Below are positions 2,092-11,222 of a DNA stretch of 12,322 nt, one piece after another. The position numbers and the translations under genes are program-made. The notes beneath the pieces were generated by a model that ran no database searches, was not told the origin of the DNA, and saw only the letters and a list, made by a program, of their open reading frames with translations. Each line of letters opens with the position of its first letter. Positions within the stretch are counted from its first letter, which is position 1. Source of the DNA: Clostridia bacterium (GTDB taxonomy: Bacteria; Bacillota_A; Clostridia; Oscillospirales; CAG-272); the NCBI GenBank assembly GCA_017632155.1, contig JAGBRZ010000245.1, forward strand, positions 1-12,322, written 5' to 3'.

Positions 2092-2115
2092 AAGCGCACC
2101 TCCTTGTAGCACCAT

Positions 2116-2144
2116 ACATTACCACAAGTCGGGGCATAAGTCCA
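2116..2144 (-). promoter_or_regulatory. Possible promoter of the DUF6809-like gene
   Basis: TGGACT (2139-2144) and TAATGT (2116-2121), spaced 17 bases, with TGG directly before the -10 box. Both boxes deviate from consensus. The short distance to the ribosome binding site is still possible. Weak evidence. Confidence 0.35.
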
Positions 2145-2189
2145 GATAACTTTTTGTGAACGAAAGTGTGGCCCAAGGGCACAATGATA

Positions 2190-3179
2190 TTAAGCCATTA
2201 CTGGTTGAGCGATGGTTTTTACATCCGTATCGTATTCTGTATCGGTAATATCAGACCGTGTATATCGCTCGTCCAATAGGTCTATCAATCTTTCGACCTC
2301 GGCATATGTTTTTATAACTATTTTATTTGTCGTTTCATCAATGCAGAACTTGTCCTTCCACCGTTCTACTGTTTGAATTTTGTGTAACAGTTCGTTTGCA
2401 TCTAATGATAACACCTTTGATGCTGCAATGCGCATCATTTTCTTTGCATATTTGGGCTTTCCTCTGCTGATATATTCAGTGAGCTTGTCCGTATTACTCA
2501 ACAAATTTGTTGAGGCAATACTGGTAATAGTTTGTTGCGCAGCTTGATAAATATATGTTTGGAATCCAAAATTGTTTTGCAAAAGAGAAGTGTTGGCTGT
2601 TATCAAAGAATCATTGATTATTAATATATCAATTTTTCTAGCTATTGTTAGAAGACTTTCACTTTGTTCTTCAAATACAGTTTGATTCTCAAAGCCGTTA
2701 AGTCGTGCCATTATGTTATTCTTTTTTCGGTTAGGAACCATTATGCTCCATAAATGCTGATAACACCAAATTATCTGTTCTCCTTTTCGCAATTTGAAGG
2801 CAAGACCGGCGGAATTGCTTAGATCATCTTCTGAAAAAGGGGATATCGCATCTGTATTGTTTAAAAACGAAAATGGCACAAAATCGCCGCTTTGCGGTAT
2901 TATCAAAAATTTATGCTGATCGTCAGCCAAGCTTGTACCGTCAACATATTCTGCTTCTTCGGAAATGTAGTTATCGTTTATAACTGAGAAAAGCATATTT
3001 TTCAAGACAGTGCGAAGGGTATCACCCTCGTTGTTTGTTTTCTCCGACAATGATATTCTTTTGAGCATTGGTGCATTTTTCATAACAACAAACACATCCA
3101 ATCCACATTGATTACTATTTGAGTGAAAATCAGTTAAAAGTGCCTTTATGGTTGTTTGGGTTAATGCGTTCTCGGACAT
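2190..3179 (-). CDS. kwaB: Kiwa defence protein KwaB (DUF4868 family)
   Basis: A 329-residue soluble protein, close to the usual KwaB length of about 315. The basis for the call is a central region typical of DUF4868 (FKLRKGEQIIWCYQHLW, then a hydrophobic IDILIINDSLI strand followed by an aromatic FGFQTYIYQAA segment). The helical C-terminus with LLDERYTRSDITDTEY also fits. The strongest support is the four-helix membrane protein directly upstream, as in the two-gene Kiwa system. In Kiwa, KwaA is the membrane component and KwaB the cytoplasmic partner that acts against phage DNA processes. The start at 3179 has GGAGGG 7 bases upstream and lies 18 bases after the kwaA stop, so the two are co-transcribed. 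It is the last gene of the six-gene operon. A weak hairpin at 2168-2182 is the only terminator candidate behind it. The family call is by recognition, not by a profile search. Confidence 0.75.
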   Translation of the reverse strand: MSENALTQTTIKALLTDFHSNSNQCGLDVFVVMKNAPMLKRISLSEKTNNEGDTLRTVLKNMLFSVINDNYISEEAEYVDGTSLADDQHKFLIIPQSGDFVPFSFLNNTDAISPFSEDDLSNSAGLAFKLRKGEQIIWCYQHLWSIMVPNRKKNNIMARLNGFENQTVFEEQSESLLTIARKIDILIINDSLITANTSLLQNNFGFQTYIYQAAQQTITSIASTNLLSNTDKLTEYISRGKPKYAKKMMRIAASKVLSLDANELLHKIQTVERWKDKFCIDETTNKIVIKTYAEVERLIDLLDERYTRSDITDTEYDTDVKTIAQPVMA

Positions 3180-3197
3180 TTTGATCCCTCCGTTCTT

Positions 3198-3842
3198 TTA
3201 GTCATTATAAATTAGAAAAACACCATCAGTTATATATTTTCGTCTAATAGTTGCCTCTTCCGAAATACCTTTACCGTATGTTATGGCAACATACTCTTTA
3301 TTTGCGTCTTCAATATCATCTGCAGGATTAACAAATTTAAAAGTATATGTTTTATATTGAAGCAACGAAAGTATGGGGTTGTTATAAAAATTTTTGGAAT
3401 GAATTAAAAGCATAACTATCATGAAGAGAAGAGCAATAAAAACAAGAAAACTTCTCCAATTATTGATGTCATCCATTAGTAGGGGTAGAATATATGTCAC
3501 TAAGAATATTGCACCGCCGTCGGTCTCTTTTTCTGCAACTATGATTTGCTCGCCTGCGGCTGTGAATCCATTGTTTTGTATGCCTCTAAATCCACACGCG
3601 ATAAAAATCGTTACAATTAGCCAAGCTATACTTATAGAAAAAACAATCATCTCCCAGAAAGACGGATGTTGAATTGTAGAAGCAATAGTTTCCCAAAAGT
3701 TATTCTTTATTTTATCAAAAAACTTGCAAATAAGATTGCAGTATGCGCAGATATGCGAATACTTGATGGCTAACAACAGAAACAGCGGTGCGAATGATTG
3801 AATGATCAAACTACGCTTGACTTTTAAATTTTCGTGCTTCAT
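3198..3842 (-). CDS. kwaA: Kiwa defence membrane protein KwaA
   Basis: A 214-residue protein with four hydrophobic segments at about 11-28, 63-84, 109-123 and 131-148, followed by a soluble tail with NPILSLLQYKTYTF. This layout, and the position directly before a DUF4868-like gene, fit KwaA, the membrane component of Kiwa. An upstream TTG at 3884 would extend the protein by 14 residues, but ATG at 3842 is preferred because GAGGA lies 7 bases before it. With this start the gene begins 28 bases after the DUF262/HNH gene and does not overlap it. The region GFTAAGEQIIVAEKETDGGAIF between helices 2 and 3 looks like a soluble loop. The hydrophobic pattern is plain in the sequence; the name rests mainly on the pair. 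Confidence 0.72.
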   Translation of the reverse strand: MKHENLKVKRSLIIQSFAPLFLLLAIKYSHICAYCNLICKFFDKIKNNFWETIASTIQHPSFWEMIVFSISIAWLIVTIFIACGFRGIQNNGFTAAGEQIIVAEKETDGGAIFLVTYILPLLMDDINNWRSFLVFIALLFMIVMLLIHSKNFYNNPILSLLQYKTYTFKFVNPADDIEDANKEYVAITYGKGISEEATIRRKYITDGVFLIYND

Positions 3843-3870
3843 TTTTTGTTCCTCGAAATAAGATTTCTTG

Positions 3871-6078
3871 TTATGTGCGCACAAGACGCTTTTTTACCCA
3901 CGGCACAAGACGTTTACGGTCGTGTTCAAACCATTGGCTACAAACATAAAGTGCTTGTCCGTTGTAATGAATGGGTGTAGTCCAGTAGCGTTTTTGTCCT
4001 ACATCGTCTGTAACCTCGTCTTCAGAATAAACAAACAACGGGAATGCACAGCCTAGGTGCTCCATACTGTAGTCTTTGCTCTTCAAATGCTCAAAATCAT
4101 CGTCCGTCAGCAACCCCTGGGTTACAAGATATTCAATAGATTTTTTTGCAACTATTCCAATTTTTTCAAGTCTAAAGAAATCATCGGTGAAAGTTTCAAG
4201 CGAAACAGCCGCCTCCGCTACCGGAGTAATTGCCGTTGTATCATCAGCCGAGAAACCAAGTGCTGTCAAGAATTTTTGTTTGATGGTAATGCATCTAGCT
4301 TGTAAGTATTCAAAATACTCTTCTCGCAATGTTGCAAAATCTCCTGCTTGATATGGGAGATCCATCCACTCCAGCATCGTCACCTCGGTGAAGCTGTACT
4401 TTTCTTCTATGTATTGGAGCGTGCATTTTGCCTTTGCCAAATATCCGGTATCTTGATAGAAGTTGAGATCTTGCTTTGTACGGTTGATTCCTTCAGGTAA
4501 ATAGCATATGTTTGCAATGTGAGAAATAGGCAAACCAGTACCCTTACATTTTTTAATCAAGCCCTTCATTTGGCTCTTGGTAGCAATGTGCTCTACATCA
4601 AAGGCATCCAATGATAACTGATCCATAGCCGTGAACAACGATAGATATATGGTATTGAGGATAACATAGTCCTTTTCATTGGGGTTATGAACATTCTTGG
4701 CTTCCTCGATGTTGTTGCAGTATTCAACGTAGTTATCAAACGCCGTGGAGAACATTCCCCTGGTGAGAGGAGAAAGATATCTCTTGTCACCGTTGGCAGA
4801 GTGGATTTTCGTAGTGCCGCCTTCAGCCCAGTGCTTTGAGAGAATATCATATACGTAATATTTCCAAAAGTTATCTTTCAGCGTGACGGCACTATTTTTC
4901 CAAGAATCCTTCTCCTCCAGGTCGGCATCAAACATTTCTCGGAAGGTAAAGGAGATCATTGATAAAATTTGGAACTGCGAATGCATAATTTTAATCGTGT
5001 GTCTCGTGTTACCTTTGAATCTAATGATGGGAGCGATAGCACTGTCCACAAACTCAATGGCTTTAATAAGGCAACTTTCAAGAACATCAATTTTGTCTTT
5101 ATACAGCAGAACCGAACTATAAACATCCTTTACCCGGTTATGGCTTGAATTAAAGCAGGCGTTCAGCAACAAGAAAGCAACGGGGTTTGTCTCATCCGCA
5201 GATAGATTCGTTTGGAAAGCAAGTATTGGGTATTTTGTTGTAATATATTTTGACAATCCGAACACATACTCAAACGCACTCAAATTCTTGCTCTTTCGGA
5301 TGGCGTCTCTATCGTAACCGTGAACCTCGTATCCGTCATCGTTTAAGCAATCATATTTTTTGAGTACATAATCTACGATTGCATCATTAGAGACGTGGAA
5401 CTTTTGCGAGGGCCATGAAGCCGCATAAATTTCGTAATCCGTCAGAGGAGTACCCTGTGAATTCATCAATGTGAAGATGTCTGCAAGAGTTTCTTCCTCG
5501 CCGGAATATACGATAGCCGGGATTTGAGAACGGCTCAAATCGTTATATTCATCTTTAATACTCTGGAATACCGGTTTCACAAGAGCGGTAAACTGCTTCA
5601 GTTTTGCTCCTACAATAGGATATTTATCCGCAAGTTCAGTAAACAGCTCGGCGATTTCAAAGGTATCAAAAGAAGCAAGTTGATGCACATATTCCATTAT
5701 AATGGCATCAATATCGGCGTATTCCTCGGCAGGGGCTTCGGTAAGTGCATAGATTGAGGATAGCACGTCCGCAGGGATTTGCTCAATCTTAAAGAAGTGC
5801 GTGGGGTTGGACAAATACTTCTTTATCGCCGTGCCTCGCTGCAATCCATCAATAAGCGTATAAATCTGCTGATCGTTTTTCGTGGTTTTATAAAACAGCA
5901 ACGTGCCTATAGGGTAACTCTTCTTCAAAGATTCGATAAAAGACTCTTGCTGCTTGGAAGACCACCGCTTTCCGCGCTGAAACATAGGGATAACAATCTT
6001 CTTATCCCCATTGTAACCCTTTGATAATGATTGATATATTTCTTTTAGTGTCCATAATTCAGGAATGCATTTTGACAT
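3871..6078 (-). CDS. DUF262/HNH protein, GmrSD-like type IV restriction candidate
   Basis: A 735-residue protein. The N-terminal DUF262 domain shows IPMFQRGKRW (30-39) and DGLQRG (77-82), the ParB-like nucleotide-binding signature of the GmrS half of GmrSD. NSQGTPLTDYEIYAA (207-220) also belongs to it. Residues 490-540 show DVEHIATKS, then NICYLP and NRTK, matching the HNH nuclease fold of DUF1524 (GmrD half), with His497 as likely catalytic residue. A further C-terminal domain (about 620-735) with RYWTTPIHYNGQALYVCSQW is not part of basic GmrSD; I think it is a winged-helix-like or substrate domain. Known relatives are NTP-dependent nucleases that cut DNA with modified cytosines, such as glucosylated hydroxymethylcytosine. 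ATG at 6078 is chosen over 6084 because GGAG lies 8 bases before it. It starts 22 bases after the endonuclease gene and belongs to the same operon. Confidence 0.82.
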   Translation of the reverse strand: MSKCIPELWTLKEIYQSLSKGYNGDKKIVIPMFQRGKRWSSKQQESFIESLKKSYPIGTLLFYKTTKNDQQIYTLIDGLQRGTAIKKYLSNPTHFFKIEQIPADVLSSIYALTEAPAEEYADIDAIIMEYVHQLASFDTFEIAELFTELADKYPIVGAKLKQFTALVKPVFQSIKDEYNDLSRSQIPAIVYSGEEETLADIFTLMNSQGTPLTDYEIYAASWPSQKFHVSNDAIVDYVLKKYDCLNDDGYEVHGYDRDAIRKSKNLSAFEYVFGLSKYITTKYPILAFQTNLSADETNPVAFLLLNACFNSSHNRVKDVYSSVLLYKDKIDVLESCLIKAIEFVDSAIAPIIRFKGNTRHTIKIMHSQFQILSMISFTFREMFDADLEEKDSWKNSAVTLKDNFWKYYVYDILSKHWAEGGTTKIHSANGDKRYLSPLTRGMFSTAFDNYVEYCNNIEEAKNVHNPNEKDYVILNTIYLSLFTAMDQLSLDAFDVEHIATKSQMKGLIKKCKGTGLPISHIANICYLPEGINRTKQDLNFYQDTGYLAKAKCTLQYIEEKYSFTEVTMLEWMDLPYQAGDFATLREEYFEYLQARCITIKQKFLTALGFSADDTTAITPVAEAAVSLETFTDDFFRLEKIGIVAKKSIEYLVTQGLLTDDDFEHLKSKDYSMEHLGCAFPLFVYSEDEVTDDVGQKRYWTTPIHYNGQALYVCSQWFEHDRKRLVPWVKKRLVRT

Positions 6079-6100
6079 GACCATATCTCCATTCTTTCAA

Positions 6101-7336
6101 TCAAAGTTCGGGCAATGAACAAACTTCAGTAATTTTTCGCCATTGAATATTATATTTTTTATCCATAAGCCCAAGTGATTGCCATAAGATTTTTTCGTAT
6201 TTCAGAAAACCTGTTTTCGATGCATCGCCTGCAACTCTATTGGGGTTTCTTTTGATATATCCTTTGAGCTCATAGTCTGTTTCCATAATTGCAAGAACTT
6301 CATCGATATCTTTATCGGGATGCTTTTTGGAAGTGGAGTCAATGTCAAGCAACAAATCCAAATGGTGACCAACAGTGAGAACTTCTCTGGTAAAATAATC
6401 AGCAAACACCTTACTGGTGGGACCGTTTGAAAGACCTATATGATACAGCTTAAAGCCAGAATCGGTTAAACTACCTTCAGAGTCAATCACCTGTATATGT
6501 TTCAAAAAAGTGACATAATTCTTTTTGATAGAGTTGTAATAGTTGTCACCAACAAAGGTGGTGTCAATATCTTGGGAAATAATTGCTGCCCAGTGCTCCT
6601 GTGGTATTTTTTTACGCATAGCCGCCACTTTCTTTTCCAAGAAAGTAAGGGGCTTTCCAGTTTGAAGTGTACCGATTACATTGCCTGCGATATCCTTTAC
6701 AGGCGCTGTACGGAAATCTGTCAAAATGCTTATTGGAATAATCTTTTCTTTCCAGCACGCGGCAAAAGCATCCCCTTCCACAATGCCCACTTTTTTTAAA
6801 TAGTAATAGTGTAAAAGTAGATGAAACATTGCAATCGGCAGGTCTTGATGCTTTGCCCAAAATCGATCAGCTGTCGGCTTGTGAGCATAATCTGTATCGG
6901 TTGAAAGAGTGGTAACATTATGGGCTAAAGTTAAATTGTTGGGGTTGTTATTATCATAGACAATAAGACCAACAGGGATTTTATCTCCGATTTGTGCGTT
7001 GTACAAATCTGTAAGGAAATTTCCCATATTAAAGCCATCAATTATTTGAGGCGAAATGAGGTATGCCAAGTCACAACTTTTGAGATACGCGATGCTTTGT
7101 CCAACACCAGTAAGCATACCTCTTTTAGTTTCTGTTGCAGGTTTGAACTCAAAAGAAGCAAGCTTTTTGTTTGTCGGATCATAAAAAGCGGCATCAGGAG
7201 ATGGAAAATCTGCACTTGTGCCAACTCTATAGAAATCAGCTCCCCAGCTTCCGTTATACTGCCATGTGGCAGTTTTAAAGTTTTGTAAAATCGCATCGGT
7301 TGTTGCTTTAGCAAGAACATGATGATTTAATGCCAC
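6101..7336 (-). CDS. Type II restriction endonuclease, PD-(D/E)XK fold
   Basis: A 411-residue protein I cannot place in a named enzyme family. Near the N-terminus it shows a clear nuclease core: PD at 47-48 in SADFPSPDAAF, then E63 and K65 in SFEFK, followed by GVGQSIAYL (77-85), a helix common behind this core. D48, E63 and K65 are the likely metal-binding and catalytic residues. The position directly behind a double cytosine methyltransferase makes it the partner that cuts the site which that enzyme protects. Translation starts with GTG at 7336, only 3 bases after the methyltransferase stop. Its ribosome binding site (GAGGAGGAA) is made by the last codons of the methyltransferase, so the two are translationally linked. 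The recognition site cannot be read from the sequence. The C-terminal two thirds, probably target recognition, show no motif I know. Confidence 0.78.
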   Translation of the reverse strand: MALNHHVLAKATTDAILQNFKTATWQYNGSWGADFYRVGTSADFPSPDAAFYDPTNKKLASFEFKPATETKRGMLTGVGQSIAYLKSCDLAYLISPQIIDGFNMGNFLTDLYNAQIGDKIPVGLIVYDNNNPNNLTLAHNVTTLSTDTDYAHKPTADRFWAKHQDLPIAMFHLLLHYYYLKKVGIVEGDAFAACWKEKIIPISILTDFRTAPVKDIAGNVIGTLQTGKPLTFLEKKVAAMRKKIPQEHWAAIISQDIDTTFVGDNYYNSIKKNYVTFLKHIQVIDSEGSLTDSGFKLYHIGLSNGPTSKVFADYFTREVLTVGHHLDLLLDIDSTSKKHPDKDIDEVLAIMETDYELKGYIKRNPNRVAGDASKTGFLKYEKILWQSLGLMDKKYNIQWRKITEVCSLPEL

Positions 7337-7339
7337 GGT

Positions 7340-9544
7340 TTATTCCTCCTCCAACATAGATTTCTTTGCGAGATGTGTTGCAGAGTCGATGCTCCACTCT
7401 TTGTTAACAACAGTTCTTAATCTTTCACCAAATGTTTGAGCTACAATACAAGGGAATGCATTGCCTACCTGTAGGCACTGGTTAATAATAGGCCCAACAA
7501 ACTCAAAATCGTCTGGGAAGGTTTGGATACGTGCAGCTTCTCTAACAGTAAGTGTTCTGTTTAATGTAGGATGAACCGGAAGTGCGTTGTGTCCAGGAAC
7601 AATTGTACAAGAAGGTTTTTTACGGTCAAGTCGTGCAAATACATGACTAAAATTGGCAACCGGTTTACCCGTTTTAGTACCCAACTTCAGATGTTCAGGC
7701 AATGCATCAACATCCATCTTCCCACCTTCGGTAATATAGGAAAAACGTTCTGCTACCACTTTTGAGTGGCTGGGGGCACGATGATTTTTCAGCTTGCCTA
7801 ATGTAGATTCATCCGCAAGATCCGTCAGTACCTCCTCAACTGTTCTATAAGGATGTTGCCAGGATTCTGGATTCTCAAAATATTTCGCCTTCGGGAACGG
7901 AAACGCCAAATCCGTTTTTGTACCAATCAAAATAAAACGACGACGCAACTGCGGCGCACCATAATCGGCGGCGTTAATCACTCTGTGTTCAGTACGGTAA
8001 CCGTGTTCTCTAAAATACTGCTCAATGGTACTAACATACTCACCATTGTGTGCAGAAAGGATGCCAGGAACATTTTCCATAATAAACCAAGGCGTTTCTG
8101 ATCGCACAACAATATTGGCAAATGCATAAACTAAATTGTTTCTCTGGTCTTTAGTTAAATCGTGATTTTTGGTGTTTACAAATCTACGATTCCCAAACAT
8201 AGAAAACCCTTGACACGGAGGACCTCCAACAACGAGATCAACCTTGGCACGTTTCAATTTTTCTGCTACCAAAATTTGATTTTCTTCAACAGAGAGATCA
8301 ATTTGCAAACATTCATGAGTAAAATTCTTTCTATATGCCTCAACAGCATAATCGTTGAATTCTGCTCCAAGTACGCATTCCAAGCCTGCTTGCTCTAATC
8401 CTTGTGTAAATCCACCTGCTCCACAGAACAAGTCACCAAACTTCAGCGTTGCACGTTTAGCCTTGCGTTCTTTGCGAAGGGTAACTCCAAGATCTGTTTT
8501 TGCATAAAAAGAGTTATCAGGCATAAGTCCAGAATATTTTTCTCCTTCAATAAAACTACGAACACAATCTGCAATTTTAGCTGCCATAAGAGGAGGTACA
8601 GCGTTTCCTACCTGAATGCACTGAGATCTACGGTCTCCGCTAAAAATATATGAGTCCGGGAAAGTTTGGATACGCGCACCCTCTCGAGGAGTCAAACTAC
8701 GATCGAGTACAGGATGCACCGGAAGTGCATTATTACCGGGGACTATGGTAGAAGAGACTTCCTGACGATGCAAACGAGTGTAAGTATTTCCAAAATTCTT
8801 GCGTCTAATATCCTCTGGAAGATCCTCGGGTTTAGGAAGTTTTCCGCCCTCGGGAATAAGTTGATATCTCCGAACAACGATATCAGAATGATTAAGTGCA
8901 ATATGATTAGGAATTTCTTCACCCTTATCCATAAGGTCATTTATCGCCTCACCGACATTCTTAAAAGCTTTAATACTACCATAAGACTCAGAACTGTGCA
9001 CAGGGAAAAGAAATTGCTCTTCCGATGTTGTTCCGACGATAAATACACGCTCTCGTTTTTGAGGCACGCCATAATTGGAGGTATCAATCATTGAATAATG
9101 CAAATTGTAGCCGATAGCCATAAATGCATTAACCACTTGTTCAAAACATCTACCCTCAAACATAGTGAATAAGCCTTTTACATTTTCAAAAACAAAGCAT
9201 TTAGGACGAATAGCGTCAACTATTTTAACATAGCTTTCAAAAAGCGTGTTTCTGGGATCGGCAGAGTTTTTGTTTCCCATATTGGAAAAACCTTGACAGG
9301 GAGGACCACCAATAATCACGTCGATCTTTTTATCACCGATATATGTTTTAATTTTGGAAATAGATAATTTTCTTATGTCTTCCAACAAGTATGGCTCTTC
9401 AGGAAAGTTGAGAGAAAAAGAGTCTCTTGCTTGCGGCATTATATCACTCGCCAACAGACCTTCAAATCCAGCTTCTTTGAAACCAATATCTAAGCCACCT
9501 GCACCTGTAAAAAGAGAAATGTAATAGTACTTATTATCAATCAT
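7340..9544 (-). CDS. Fused double C5-cytosine DNA methyltransferase
   Basis: A 734-residue protein holding two complete DNA (cytosine-5) methyltransferases, each about 350 residues, against a family norm of 300-450 for one. Copy 1: SAM-binding FTGAGGL (12-18), catalytic PPCQGF with Cys83, ENV (120-122), QKRERVF (162-168), ARIQTFPD and QVGNA (about 290-315). Copy 2: FCGAGGF (373-379), PPCQGF with Cys444, ENV (490-492), QLRRRF (532-537), ARIQTFPD and QVGNA (about 671-695). All catalytic residues are present in both. The target-recognition regions resemble each other (EGGK, LPE, TIVPG, NALPVHP). Two linked enzymes usually methylate the two strands of an asymmetric site; here the targets may be related. 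The start at 9544 has GGAGG 8 bases upstream and overlaps the end of the regulator gene by 8 bases (ATGATTGA). It protects host DNA from the endonuclease downstream. Confidence 0.93.
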   Translation of the reverse strand: MIDNKYYYISLFTGAGGLDIGFKEAGFEGLLASDIMPQARDSFSLNFPEEPYLLEDIRKLSISKIKTYIGDKKIDVIIGGPPCQGFSNMGNKNSADPRNTLFESYVKIVDAIRPKCFVFENVKGLFTMFEGRCFEQVVNAFMAIGYNLHYSMIDTSNYGVPQKRERVFIVGTTSEEQFLFPVHSSESYGSIKAFKNVGEAINDLMDKGEEIPNHIALNHSDIVVRRYQLIPEGGKLPKPEDLPEDIRRKNFGNTYTRLHRQEVSSTIVPGNNALPVHPVLDRSLTPREGARIQTFPDSYIFSGDRRSQCIQVGNAVPPLMAAKIADCVRSFIEGEKYSGLMPDNSFYAKTDLGVTLRKERKAKRATLKFGDLFCGAGGFTQGLEQAGLECVLGAEFNDYAVEAYRKNFTHECLQIDLSVEENQILVAEKLKRAKVDLVVGGPPCQGFSMFGNRRFVNTKNHDLTKDQRNNLVYAFANIVVRSETPWFIMENVPGILSAHNGEYVSTIEQYFREHGYRTEHRVINAADYGAPQLRRRFILIGTKTDLAFPFPKAKYFENPESWQHPYRTVEEVLTDLADESTLGKLKNHRAPSHSKVVAERFSYITEGGKMDVDALPEHLKLGTKTGKPVANFSHVFARLDRKKPSCTIVPGHNALPVHPTLNRTLTVREAARIQTFPDDFEFVGPIINQCLQVGNAFPCIVAQTFGERLRTVVNKEWSIDSATHLAKKSMLEEE

Positions 9545-9761
9545 TACTCTTTCCTCCCAAACACTCGATGCTAATATCAAAATCTATACCACTTTTCTTG
9601 CAATAGTCATCAAGCAATTTCATGGTTTTATATGTAGGTTTCGTTTTTCCTGATTCCCATCTATTAACTGTTGCAAATGAAACTCCGAGTTCCTTTGCAA
9701 AAGCTTCTTGACTCAAGAATTGTTGATGTCTAATAAGTTTGATTTTTTCCGGGAAATTCAT
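9537..9761 (-). CDS. XRE-family regulator, likely restriction-modification controller (C) protein
   Basis: A 74-residue protein made up almost entirely of a Cro/C1-type helix-turn-helix (about residues 10-45, SQEAFAKELGVSFATVNRWE). Its size and its place at the head of a restriction-modification operon match controller proteins, which set the timing of methyltransferase and nuclease expression. An upstream TTG at 9779 would add six residues, but ATG at 9761 has an AGAGGTG ribosome binding site at the right distance. The gene overlaps the methyltransferase by 8 bases, suggesting coupled translation. A long inverted repeat over the -10 box of its own promoter is the likely binding site. In many known systems the controller precedes the nuclease; here it precedes the methyltransferase and the whole operon, so plain autorepression is as likely as activation. 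Confidence 0.85.
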   Translation of the reverse strand: MNFPEKIKLIRHQQFLSQEAFAKELGVSFATVNRWESGKTKPTYKTMKLLDDYCKKSGIDFDISIECLGGKSND

Positions 9762-9778
9762 AAGGCACCTCTCACACA

Positions 9779-9805
9779 ATATGTTATAACATCATTATAA
9801 CATAT
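9779..9805. promoter_or_regulatory. Operator-like inverted repeat over the operon promoter
   Basis: Arms ATATGTTATAA (9779-9789) and TTATAACATAT (9795-9805) are perfect inverted copies with a 5-base spacer. Inside lies a second perfect palindrome, ATGTTATAACAT (9781-9792). The repeat covers the -10 box and the expected transcription start, which fits repression by the XRE protein encoded just downstream. Confidence 0.75.
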
Positions 9806-9822
9806 TTATAGCTTTTCTTCAA
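9794..9822 (-). promoter_or_regulatory. Promoter of the defence operon
   Basis: TTGAAG (9817-9822) and a perfect TATAAT (9794-9799) with 17-base spacing. The transcription start is expected near 9787, about 25 bases before the start codon of the regulator. A second possible start is a TGG-extended TATAAT at 9881-9886 farther upstream, without a clear -35 box. Confidence 0.7.
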
Positions 9823-9835
9823 TAGAAAAACAAAA

Positions 9836-9852
9836 ATATTTTCTGAAAATAT
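9836..9852. repeat. Upstream dyad ATATTTTC-N-GAAAATAT
   Basis: A perfect 8-bp inverted repeat with a 1-base centre, about 14 bases upstream of the -35 box of the operon promoter. Its position would fit a second regulator site, but the area is AT-rich and its sequence differs from the main operator. Confidence 0.4.
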
Positions 9853-9901: not shown

Positions 9902-9980
9902 TTGCTACCTCTTACATTTTCGCAAAAATCACTTACATTTTGGAATAATTGCTGTATGGTGATCTCGTAAGAGGTAGCAA
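9902..9980. repeat. 14-bp inverted repeat around the broken end of the recombinase
   Basis: TTGCTACCTCTTAC (9902-9915) and GTAAGAGGTAGCAA (9967-9980) are exact inverted copies, 51 bases apart. The right arm is recombinase coding sequence (CYLLR on the minus strand); the left arm lies beyond its stop. Between them CTTACATTTT occurs twice in direct orientation (9911-9920 and 9932-9941). The structure marks the place where the recombinase departs from its family's normal sequence. Confidence 0.75.
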
Positions 9981-10795
9981 TCACGCTCCCCTCGATTTGG
10001 GATTTGTTTACCCGTAAAATAATCGGCGATGTATGTTTTCTGCAAGCATACATCGCCGTAATATTTTTCATTATTCAAAATCTTTCGGATGGTTTCAATA
10101 CCCCACGCTTTGCCACCACGTGGAGCAGGGATCTTCATATCCATCAACTCTTTTGCGATGGCGCGCAGGGAAGAGCCTTCTTCTCTCCAAGTGAAAATCA
10201 TAATGACAACGGCGGCTTCGGCGGGGACGATTTCCAAAGTTCCGTCAGAAGATTGCCTGTATCCATAGCAGGGGCGGTTATAAAACTTTGAGTTGCCGTT
10301 CTTAAATCGCACAAGGTGGCCCCAACGGACACCGTAACTTTTTGTCTCGCTTTCGTTCTGATAAACGCTTGCATACAGCGTGAGCATACGGACAGCCTGT
10401 GGGTCATTGATATGAAGCTTTTCGACCTCAAAATACACGTCAATGTTGAGGGCGTTCAGCTCATCGCAGACTTGTAAGAATTGCAAGGTGTTGCGCCCAA
10501 GGCGGCTGATGGATTTTACGATAATAAAATCTATTTTACCGGAACGGCAATCGTCCATCATACGCTGAAATTCTTTCATTTTGACATTGTGTCTCCCAGA
10601 TGCTTGTTCGGCATAAACGCCGACGAAGATCCAATTCAGTTTGGAATCAATATACTTTTCAAAGTGTTTCCGTTGGGCTTCCAAACTGTGGTACTGCATC
10701 TCCTGGGGAGTACTGACACGGCAATATGCGGCAACACGGTAAGGGCGGGGAATATTAAAAACCGGATTCGCGGGGATAATTTTTACTTTACTCAT
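9929..10795 (-). pseudogene. Large serine recombinase, C-terminally truncated
   Basis: A 288-residue protein with the catalytic resolvase domain (about 18-155: YCRVST with the nucleophile Ser28, SISRLGRN at 95-102) and the following recombinase domain (about 165-270: YGYR, a WREEGSSLRAIAKEL helix, RKILNNEKYYGD). Such enzymes cut and rejoin DNA at specific sites to insert or excise mobile elements and are normally 450-550 residues long. Here the sequence follows the family as far as DHHTAIIP and then ends with KCK and a stop, losing the zinc-ribbon and coiled-coil part that selects attachment sites. An inverted repeat and a direct repeat lie at the break. The start at 10795 has GGAGG about 13 bases upstream. 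The catalytic residues remain, so it might still act as a small invertase, but it is most likely inactive as an integrase. Confidence 0.85.
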
Positions 10796-10874: not shown

Positions 10875-11186
10875 TCACTTTGTTTTCAATTCCTGGACTT
10901 TGTCGAAAACGTCTTGGGAGATCAGAGGCGGATATTCTTCAGAACCCAAGTAGTGAGGGTTGGAGAGAATATTAGAGAGGGTTTGCTTTCCCCAAGTTGG
11001 CTTGTTTTGTGGGGAGGGAAGTCCCATTCCTTCGAGGATGCCCTTGATTTCAGAAAGACTTTTTCCTTCAGCGTAATAGTTAAATATGAGCTTAACACAG
11101 GCAGCTTGCCCCTCGTTGATAACGATCTTATTTCCGTCACGATTGTACCCGAAAGCGATTCTTTTTTGTGCGGATGCCGGATTCAT
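10875..11186 (-). CDS. Stand-alone recombinase-domain protein
   Basis: A 103-residue protein resembling the middle 'recombinase' domain of large serine recombinases (FGYNRDGNKIVINEGQAA, a YYAEGKSLSEIKGIL helix, TLSNILSNPHYLG, then ISQDVFDKVQEL) without a catalytic resolvase domain. Short proteins of this kind are commonly encoded before serine recombinases on Firmicutes elements and may help bind attachment-site DNA; their role is not established. ATG at 11186 is chosen over one at 11216 because a perfect AAGGAGGTG lies 5 bases before it. It is the first gene behind a strong promoter, and the truncated recombinase follows 79 bases later. It starts cleanly with its own binding site, so I do not regard it as a broken fragment. 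Confidence 0.82.
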   Translation of the reverse strand: MNPASAQKRIAFGYNRDGNKIVINEGQAACVKLIFNYYAEGKSLSEIKGILEGMGLPSPQNKPTWGKQTLSNILSNPHYLGSEEYPPLISQDVFDKVQELKTK

Positions 11187-11222
11187 AAATACACCTCCTT
11201 GGCTTAAAGTCTTCACACTTAT

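Follow-up and report, generated by a model that had tools for sequence, protein, structure and literature searches.

We analyzed a six-gene cluster on the minus strand of a 12,322-nucleotide stretch of DNA from a Clostridia bacterium (contig JAGBRZ010000245.1 of assembly GCA_017632155.1), which is called the window throughout. The cluster joins a small regulator, a restriction-modification pair, a DUF262-HNH protein and the two genes of the antiphage system Kiwa. It extends from position 9761 to 2190, and all six genes are intact, with internal stops in none. The gaps between them are -8, 3, 22, 28 and 18 bases in order, with the value of -8 read directly from the sequence (ATG of the second gene at 9544). 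These gaps are those of the original prediction, and its gene identities and order (controller, double methyltransferase, nuclease, DUF262, Kiwa) were confirmed by Pfam, PADLOC and motifs. In the direction of reading, the features are the following.

9794..9822, minus strand: sigma-70-type promoter, TTGAAG-17-TATAAT (consensus scan 10/12, TG ahead of the -10 box)
9783..9801, minus strand: operator-like dyad GTTATAATGATGTTATAAC, an exact GTTATAA-N5-TTATAAC that covers the -10 box
9537..9761, minus strand: C, XRE regulator (HTH_3), 74 amino acids; PF01381 2.1e-12; overlaps the methyltransferase start by 8 bases
7340..9544, minus strand: fused double 5-methylcytosine (m5C) DNA methyltransferase, 734 amino acids; PF00145 6.2e-139 in two stretches
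6101..7336, minus strand: predicted PD-(D/E)xK restriction endonuclease with a PaqCI-like (type IIS) predicted fold, 411 amino acids, GTG start
3871..6078, minus strand: DUF262-HNH protein of the GmrSD/BrxU type, 735 amino acids; PF03235 3.1e-25
3198..3842, minus strand: KwaA, Kiwa membrane protein, 214 amino acids; PADLOC 1.3e-72, hydrophobic segments
2190..3179, minus strand: KwaB, Kiwa DUF4868 protein, 329 amino acids; PF16162 1.1e-44, PADLOC 7.8e-119
2096..2160, minus strand: sequence in common with locus L033 (backbone), starting 30 bases past KwaB; blastn 76%, E 9.4e-6

The original prediction had placed one strong promoter with an operator at the head of the cluster, and both elements were found there. 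When up to 2 mismatches are allowed, the window has one further match, an imperfect copy (9794-9812) that overlaps the exact dyad, so that 2 matches stand against 0.03 expected. Locus L020 has a near-identical dyad, GCTATAATAATGTTATAAC, which covers the -10 box of the C gene there (compared by eye). The promoter layout ahead of that gene, also read by eye, is similar to the one in the window, and the two C proteins are 72% identical. The C protein of the window matched the PADLOC Control_protein profile with 8.8e-4 only; it resembles a C-type controller in that a small XRE protein (74 amino acids, HTH_3) is combined with an operator-like dyad at its own promoter. C-protein controllers activate their own gene and delay the nuclease behind the methyltransferase. 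The dyad over the -10 box would instead fit repression of the operon by C, and because methyltransferase and nuclease lie in one run there is no means of delaying the second behind the first. The earlier proposal that Kiwa would come under restriction-modification timing is therefore not supported; the operator position would fit simple autorepression. Between 1600 and 11300, promoter-like sites (29 versus 25.8 ± 5.6 expected) and terminator-like sites (9 versus 7.7 ± 2.5 expected) occur at chance level. Judged from the sequence, the six genes likely form one transcription unit, and it is plausible that they are read as one regulated operon.

Both halves of the methyltransferase carry the catalytic motifs PPCQGFS, ENV and QVGNA of DNA methyltransferases. 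The protein is 88% identical to its counterpart in L020 and 91% identical over the part present in L025. The nuclease matched no Pfam family. It matched PADLOC REase_II with 6.7e-6, and a profile search of solved structures gave PaqCI as the top match, a weak one (0.005). Its PD..ExK motif is located at residues 47-65, and P47, D48, E63 and K65 are invariant in 31 aligned sequences, which indicates an intact catalytic site. The AlphaFold2 model (predicted local distance difference test, pLDDT, 85; predicted template modeling score, pTM, 0.61) was matched to PaqCI by Foldseek with E 2.5e-12, probability 1.00 and a template modeling (TM) score of 0.46 by query length. If a type IIS enzyme recognizes an asymmetric site, both strands need protection, and this requirement fits a double methyltransferase. 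From the fused methyltransferase and the predicted fold we infer that both enzymes would share one asymmetric site, with cleavage outside it.

The methyltransferase-nuclease pair was also found in other surroundings. Two small Acinetobacter plasmids, those examined out of four records with the nuclease, carry it without the other blocks. In L029 the genes behind it encode a HAD-like protein (below the Pfam cut-off), a protein without a name and an ASCH protein, and in L021 opposite-strand genes come next. In L020, C, methyltransferase and nuclease precede a PD-T4-2/NsnA-like pair, composed of a different DUF262 protein and a HEPN protein. In L017 the pair and a DUF262 gene of the window's family converge, with about 75 bases between them. 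Next to its PaqCI-like system, this Fibrobacter locus (L017:11940-18234) also has an m5C methyltransferase and a protein that resembled Sau3AI on inspection by eye. Searches with the nuclease found it in one of the 9 genomes bearing collected loci, in one of 394 genomes from the order of G001 and in one of 113 from that of G002, the last being the L017 genome. There were two loci in viral contigs, four plasmid records, all from Acinetobacter, and no match in phages. The methyltransferase gave 16 loci in viral contigs, where only L020 was close (88%) and the others were at most 35% identical, and 4757 plasmid records, with identities above 50% only in Acinetobacter, among the best 12 of the 4757. 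Operon DNA had no match in plasmids. The accessible part of a paper on Acinetobacter NEB 394 (PMC9122589) contained nothing useful on plasmid restriction genes.

The DUF262 domain of the fourth protein contains the FQR and DG.QR motifs (FQRGKRW, DGLQR) and thereby resembles GmrSD. Across 23 aligned DUF262 sequences there is no variation at F35, Q36, R37, D79-R83, D496, E498, H499, N525 and N534 (residue numbers refer to the 737-residue form beginning at 6084). The homologue sets A1-A4 behind our alignments comprised 32, 30, 22 and 32 sequences from 120 listed per search (482, 337 and 355 found). Since Pfam DUF1524 had no match in the protein, its HNH assignment rests on the conserved pattern D.EH...N...NR. 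Foldseek matched the model (pLDDT 83, pTM 0.64) to BrxU with 1.3e-6 and to SspE with 1.5e-4, at low whole-chain TM scores of 0.27 and 0.24. An extension of about 110 residues at the C-terminus matched no Pfam family. This extension (window 3871-4227) recurs at the end of other proteins (L074:988-1986, L092:421-1815, L097:775-1755), and one protein that shares it carries an HSDR_N_2 nuclease domain. The DUF262 protein had no match in plasmids and phages; metagenome proteins include a closer relative, with 89% identity, than the readable loci. The profile reached 14 of 160, 15 of 245 and 13 of 196 genomes, and most of these matches were weak or partial; among the strong ones not seen before, L085 and L087 were examined and L090 was left out.

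An m5C methyltransferase lies within 1.5 kb of the DUF262 family gene in 9 of 25 loci (L002, L005, L010, L015, L017, L019, L033, L035 and L036), several of the 25 having short flanks and two, L009 and L010, coming from one genome. In 18 whole genomes this proximity was observed 5 times versus 0.11 by random placement. The order in L002, for example, is XRE, methyltransferase, methyltransferase, NOV_C protein, DUF262. Gene sets that adjoin the family further include LlaJI-like (L015), NOV_C (L002) and Mza-like (L001, L005) ones; the m5C methyltransferase beside it in L010 has a Vsr gene nearby.

KwaA and KwaB stand side by side with the 18-base gap, and both gave strong PADLOC matches, as expected of a Kiwa pair. 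The NCBIfam equivalog cut-offs were not reached (74.8 of 100 bits for KwaA, 123.7 of 200 bits for KwaB); the pair thus represents a divergent branch and is called Kiwa-type. The solved KwaA was matched with 4e-5 (phmmer) and the solved KwaB by sequence with 0.01 only. The KwaA start at 3842 agrees with the relative in L059 (compared by eye). The metagenome proteins include a KwaB relative at 90%. The longest contig listed is 46,141 bases for the KwaB cluster of the window versus 13,798 for its DUF262 cluster (clusters P0001/P0241), so that a close KwaB may be encoded on a contig that lacks this DUF262 gene. The KwaB family was found in 3 of 394 genomes, and of 392 genomes in the order of G009 the KwaB profile reached 7; it reached no viral contigs, and KwaB itself had no match in plasmids. 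The idea that Kiwa goes with m5C systems was dropped, as such systems lie within 3 kb in none of 7 Kiwa loci; L030-L032, which the KwaB profile fails to reach, are outside this count. In L031 (1557-6026) KwaA and KwaB are directly behind hsdM- and hsdS-type genes, i.e. Kiwa is appended to a type I-like operon, and in L061 an EcoRII-type nuclease is encoded about 2.6 kb ahead of KwaA with a serine recombinase in between.

Comparison of the window with six relatives by blastn revealed where homology begins and ends. The restriction genes match L029 at 6101-9537 (76%) and L020 at 6107-9841 (73%), i.e. from the nuclease stop to the methyltransferase or the promoter. The DUF262 gene matches L033 at 4078-6097 (75%) and 3892-3948 (79%), and the three pieces shared with L002 are all within it. 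The matches to L029, L020 and L033 end at or near the module borders. The Kiwa matches, which comprise 2202-3611 for L059 and, for L060, parts of KwaAB (about 65%), stop inside KwaA. The G+C content at third codon positions (GC3) is 0.45 in the DUF262 gene, 0.31-0.34 in methyltransferase and nuclease, and 0.32-0.35 in the Kwa genes.

L033, on the viral-collection contig UViG_3300032167_006174, contains the nearest readable relative of the DUF262 protein (81% identical). Its gene order is XRE, m5C methyltransferase, MutH/Sau3AI-like protein, a 274-residue protein, m5C methyltransferase, DUF262, HamA and HamB. The PADLOC matches of HamA (1.6e-100) and HamB (4e-267) identify the last two genes as Hachiman. 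Thus restriction genes ahead of DUF262 and a complete two-gene system behind it are seen twice, with the partners replaced. Window positions 2096-2160 correspond to L033 15802-15866, which lie about 310 bases past HamB there and 30 bases past KwaB in the window. The exchangeability of the blocks, with Hachiman at the Kiwa position and other restriction genes upstream, goes beyond the original prediction. Between DUF262 and HamA (L033:12206-12366) one frame resembles the 3' end of a methyltransferase gene by eye (GNSIVVPVI...), and this stretch is possibly the scar of a block exchange.

The recurring blocks, the homology borders and the swapped neighbors in L033 argue for a modular defense cassette. 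Our preferred interpretation, which we hold to be probable, though well short of certain, is a mobile cassette of three exchangeable blocks that would be read from one autorepressed promoter and provide layered defense. The first block would consist of C, the double m5C methyltransferase and the PaqCI-like type IIS nuclease; the methyltransferase would guard an asymmetric site on both strands, and unmodified invading DNA would be cleaved by the nuclease. The second, the GmrSD/BrxU-type DUF262-HNH nuclease, would most likely target phage DNA with base modifications that stop the first block, and it would have to ignore the m5C laid down by its own operon. The third, Kiwa, would act as a membrane-based block on injected DNA. 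C would bind the dyad over the -10 box and restrain expression of the whole run.

Several results weigh against this interpretation. Neither KwaA nor KwaB was found in any of the 25 DUF262 loci or 6 nuclease loci, and neither the DUF262 family of the window nor its nuclease in any of 10 Kiwa loci. The original prediction had named a neighborhood search for the same six-gene order in other genomes as a check, and in these three sets of loci the order did not recur. Several of the loci in these sets have short flanks. The co-occurrence check covered 102 loci, and one of the 25 DUF262 loci (L017) also has the nuclease. A search of genome contigs for the full order gave no relative in the single-protein scan and 19 loci in the profile scan, and exact junction patterns in viral contigs numbered 0 and 0. 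The link of DUF262 genes to m5C methyltransferases is overstated by random placement because defense genes cluster anyway, and compared with the Kiwa-locus controls (0 of 7 with an m5C methyltransferase) the difference was not significant (p = 0.15). As to transcription, some of the chance-level internal promoter-like sites could work, e.g. 4269-4240 upstream of KwaA, and the scan for terminator-like sites combined with folding found no clear terminator after KwaB. A hairpin located there was dropped as a terminator candidate, being weak and part of a longer stretch that folds differently. In L033 the gap between DUF262 and HamA measures about 160 bases versus 28 in the window, which makes co-transcription less obvious there. 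Finally, BrxU cuts 5-methylcytosine DNA according to the part of PMC8565348 that we could consult, and an enzyme of this kind would harm its own host here unless this DUF262 family differs. Given the BrxU fold type and the m5C methyltransferases near DUF262 in ten loci (the nine and the window), the protein must tolerate m5C or act otherwise.

The rival that survives best regards the locus as plain neighbors in a defense island, three independent systems that are each self-expressed, without a functional or regulatory link. Each block indeed occurs alone: the methyltransferase-nuclease pair on the two Acinetobacter plasmids, Kiwa without the DUF262 family or the nuclease in all 10 loci, and DUF262 genes without an m5C methyltransferase in the stretch read (e.g. 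L003, L012, L016). This explanation also agrees with the failure to meet the full order again in the loci read. It is opposed by the gaps of 22 and 28 bases, which contain ribosome-binding-like sequence (by eye) and leave no room for a promoter outside coding sequence, and by L033, which repeats the arrangement of restriction genes, DUF262 and a two-gene system with other partners. We regard independent neighbors as rather unlikely.

A more ambitious version of the cassette would place the DUF262-HNH protein as the constant core within a system of three integrated layers. The protein would be linked to m5C restriction, blind to m5C and active on other cytosine modifications; an exchangeable third block (Kiwa or Hachiman) would act on the DNA or infection states that the first two layers leave over, and one repressor would set all layers. 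So far-reaching an integration seems doubtful to us.

The anticodon nuclease PrrC beside a type I system is an example of a backup that acts when restriction is blocked. By analogy, the DUF262 protein could be a functional part of m5C restriction systems, responding to blocked restriction or lost methylation, and not a type IV enzyme. The family lies beside m5C methyltransferases of varied systems, namely Sau3AI-like (L033), LlaJI-like (L015), NOV_C (L002) and Mza-like (L005), XRE-methyltransferase arrangements (L010, L035, L036) and, in convergent orientation, the PaqCI-like system of L017, and a BrxU-like cutter of 5-methylcytosine next to such enzymes would be a hazard. The predicted fold and the motifs, however, are nearest to the nucleases BrxU and SspE, and 16 of the 25 loci, several with short flanks, have no m5C methyltransferase within 1.5 kb, so that we consider a backup role improbable. 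A metagenome assembly chimera that fused fragments of different genomes at the block borders could account for the differing nearest relatives and GC3 of the blocks, but is hardly credible, as the borders coincide with start and stop codons or nearly so, the sequence in common with L033 resumes past the tail block in both loci, and the 90% clusters of the window's DUF262 protein and KwaB each list 3 contigs (known from the listing alone).

Directly upstream of the cassette are two truncated large serine recombinase genes (window 9929-10795 and 10875-11216). The first ends about 100 bases short of the promoter and lacks the zinc-ribbon part of its full-length kin. At the other end of the window an M3 oligoendopeptidase gene (258-1412) has an in-frame stop soon after its HELGH motif, with the frame open past the stop to the window end. 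The window contains no Rfam matches and no tRNA genes.

If the six genes are on one transcript, the locus would be a natural stack of a sequence-specific, a modification-dependent and a membrane-based layer that is testable gene by gene. It also raises the sharp question of how a GmrSD-type nuclease coexists with m5C methyltransferases when BrxU cuts 5-methylcytosine. The comparison with L033 suggests a growth rule for defense cassettes, in which restriction operons acquire a complete small system at their downstream end and exchange blocks.

Restriction operons that include a GmrSD-type gene have already been published: TgvAB genes lie within the type I restriction operon of VPI-2 (PMC11411939), RloF between hsdS and hsdR (PMC4619093), and these papers also cite GmrSD-like genes located inside Hma clusters. 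The placement of Kiwa or Hachiman downstream of a gene of this type is a new variation on that theme; for Kiwa appended to a restriction or GmrSD operon no report, and for Kiwa, Hachiman and DUF262 together no paper, was found in full-text searches of a collection that lacks most subscription papers. As with TgvAB and RloF, a GmrSD-type DUF262 gene lies inside a restriction-modification operon and modified phages are the proposed target. Unlike there, the window has an m5C type II instead of a type I system, TgvAB is a two-protein system, and a Kiwa or Hachiman block is not mentioned in the accessible parts of these papers. With the BREX locus on pEFER, where BrxU is a DUF262-DUF1524 enzyme that cuts 5-methylcytosine DNA (PMC8565348, partial text), the window shares the combination of a system against unmodified DNA with a DUF262 enzyme, and BrxU is its nearest solved fold. 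The differences are a type II system instead of BREX, a DUF262 protein that must tolerate the base which BrxU cuts, and Kiwa, which that partial text does not mention.

Kiwa has been described as forming a membrane complex to which injected DNA is bound (review PMC12904381), and the Kiwa of S. thermophilus lies in a defense island that also contains R/M systems (PMC11514479), both according to the text available from these sources. The window contains the same kwaA-kwaB pair with close PADLOC matches; unlike known Kiwa, it is below the NCBIfam equivalog cut-offs and forms the tail of a restriction operon. The nuclease resembles PaqCI, in the part of PMC10201449 at hand, in its predicted fold and PD-(D/E)xK catalytic domain, but is only 13-14% identical and has 411 residues compared with 510. 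Another close parallel is L033, which has the order XRE, m5C restriction genes, DUF262 (81%), two-gene antiphage system and common backbone sequence, but differs in its Sau3AI-like restriction genes, in Hachiman replacing Kiwa and in the gap of about 160 bases ahead of Hachiman. Taken together, the findings fit best with a modular cassette, located next to the truncated serine recombinase genes, that extends the known habit of embedding one defense system in another.

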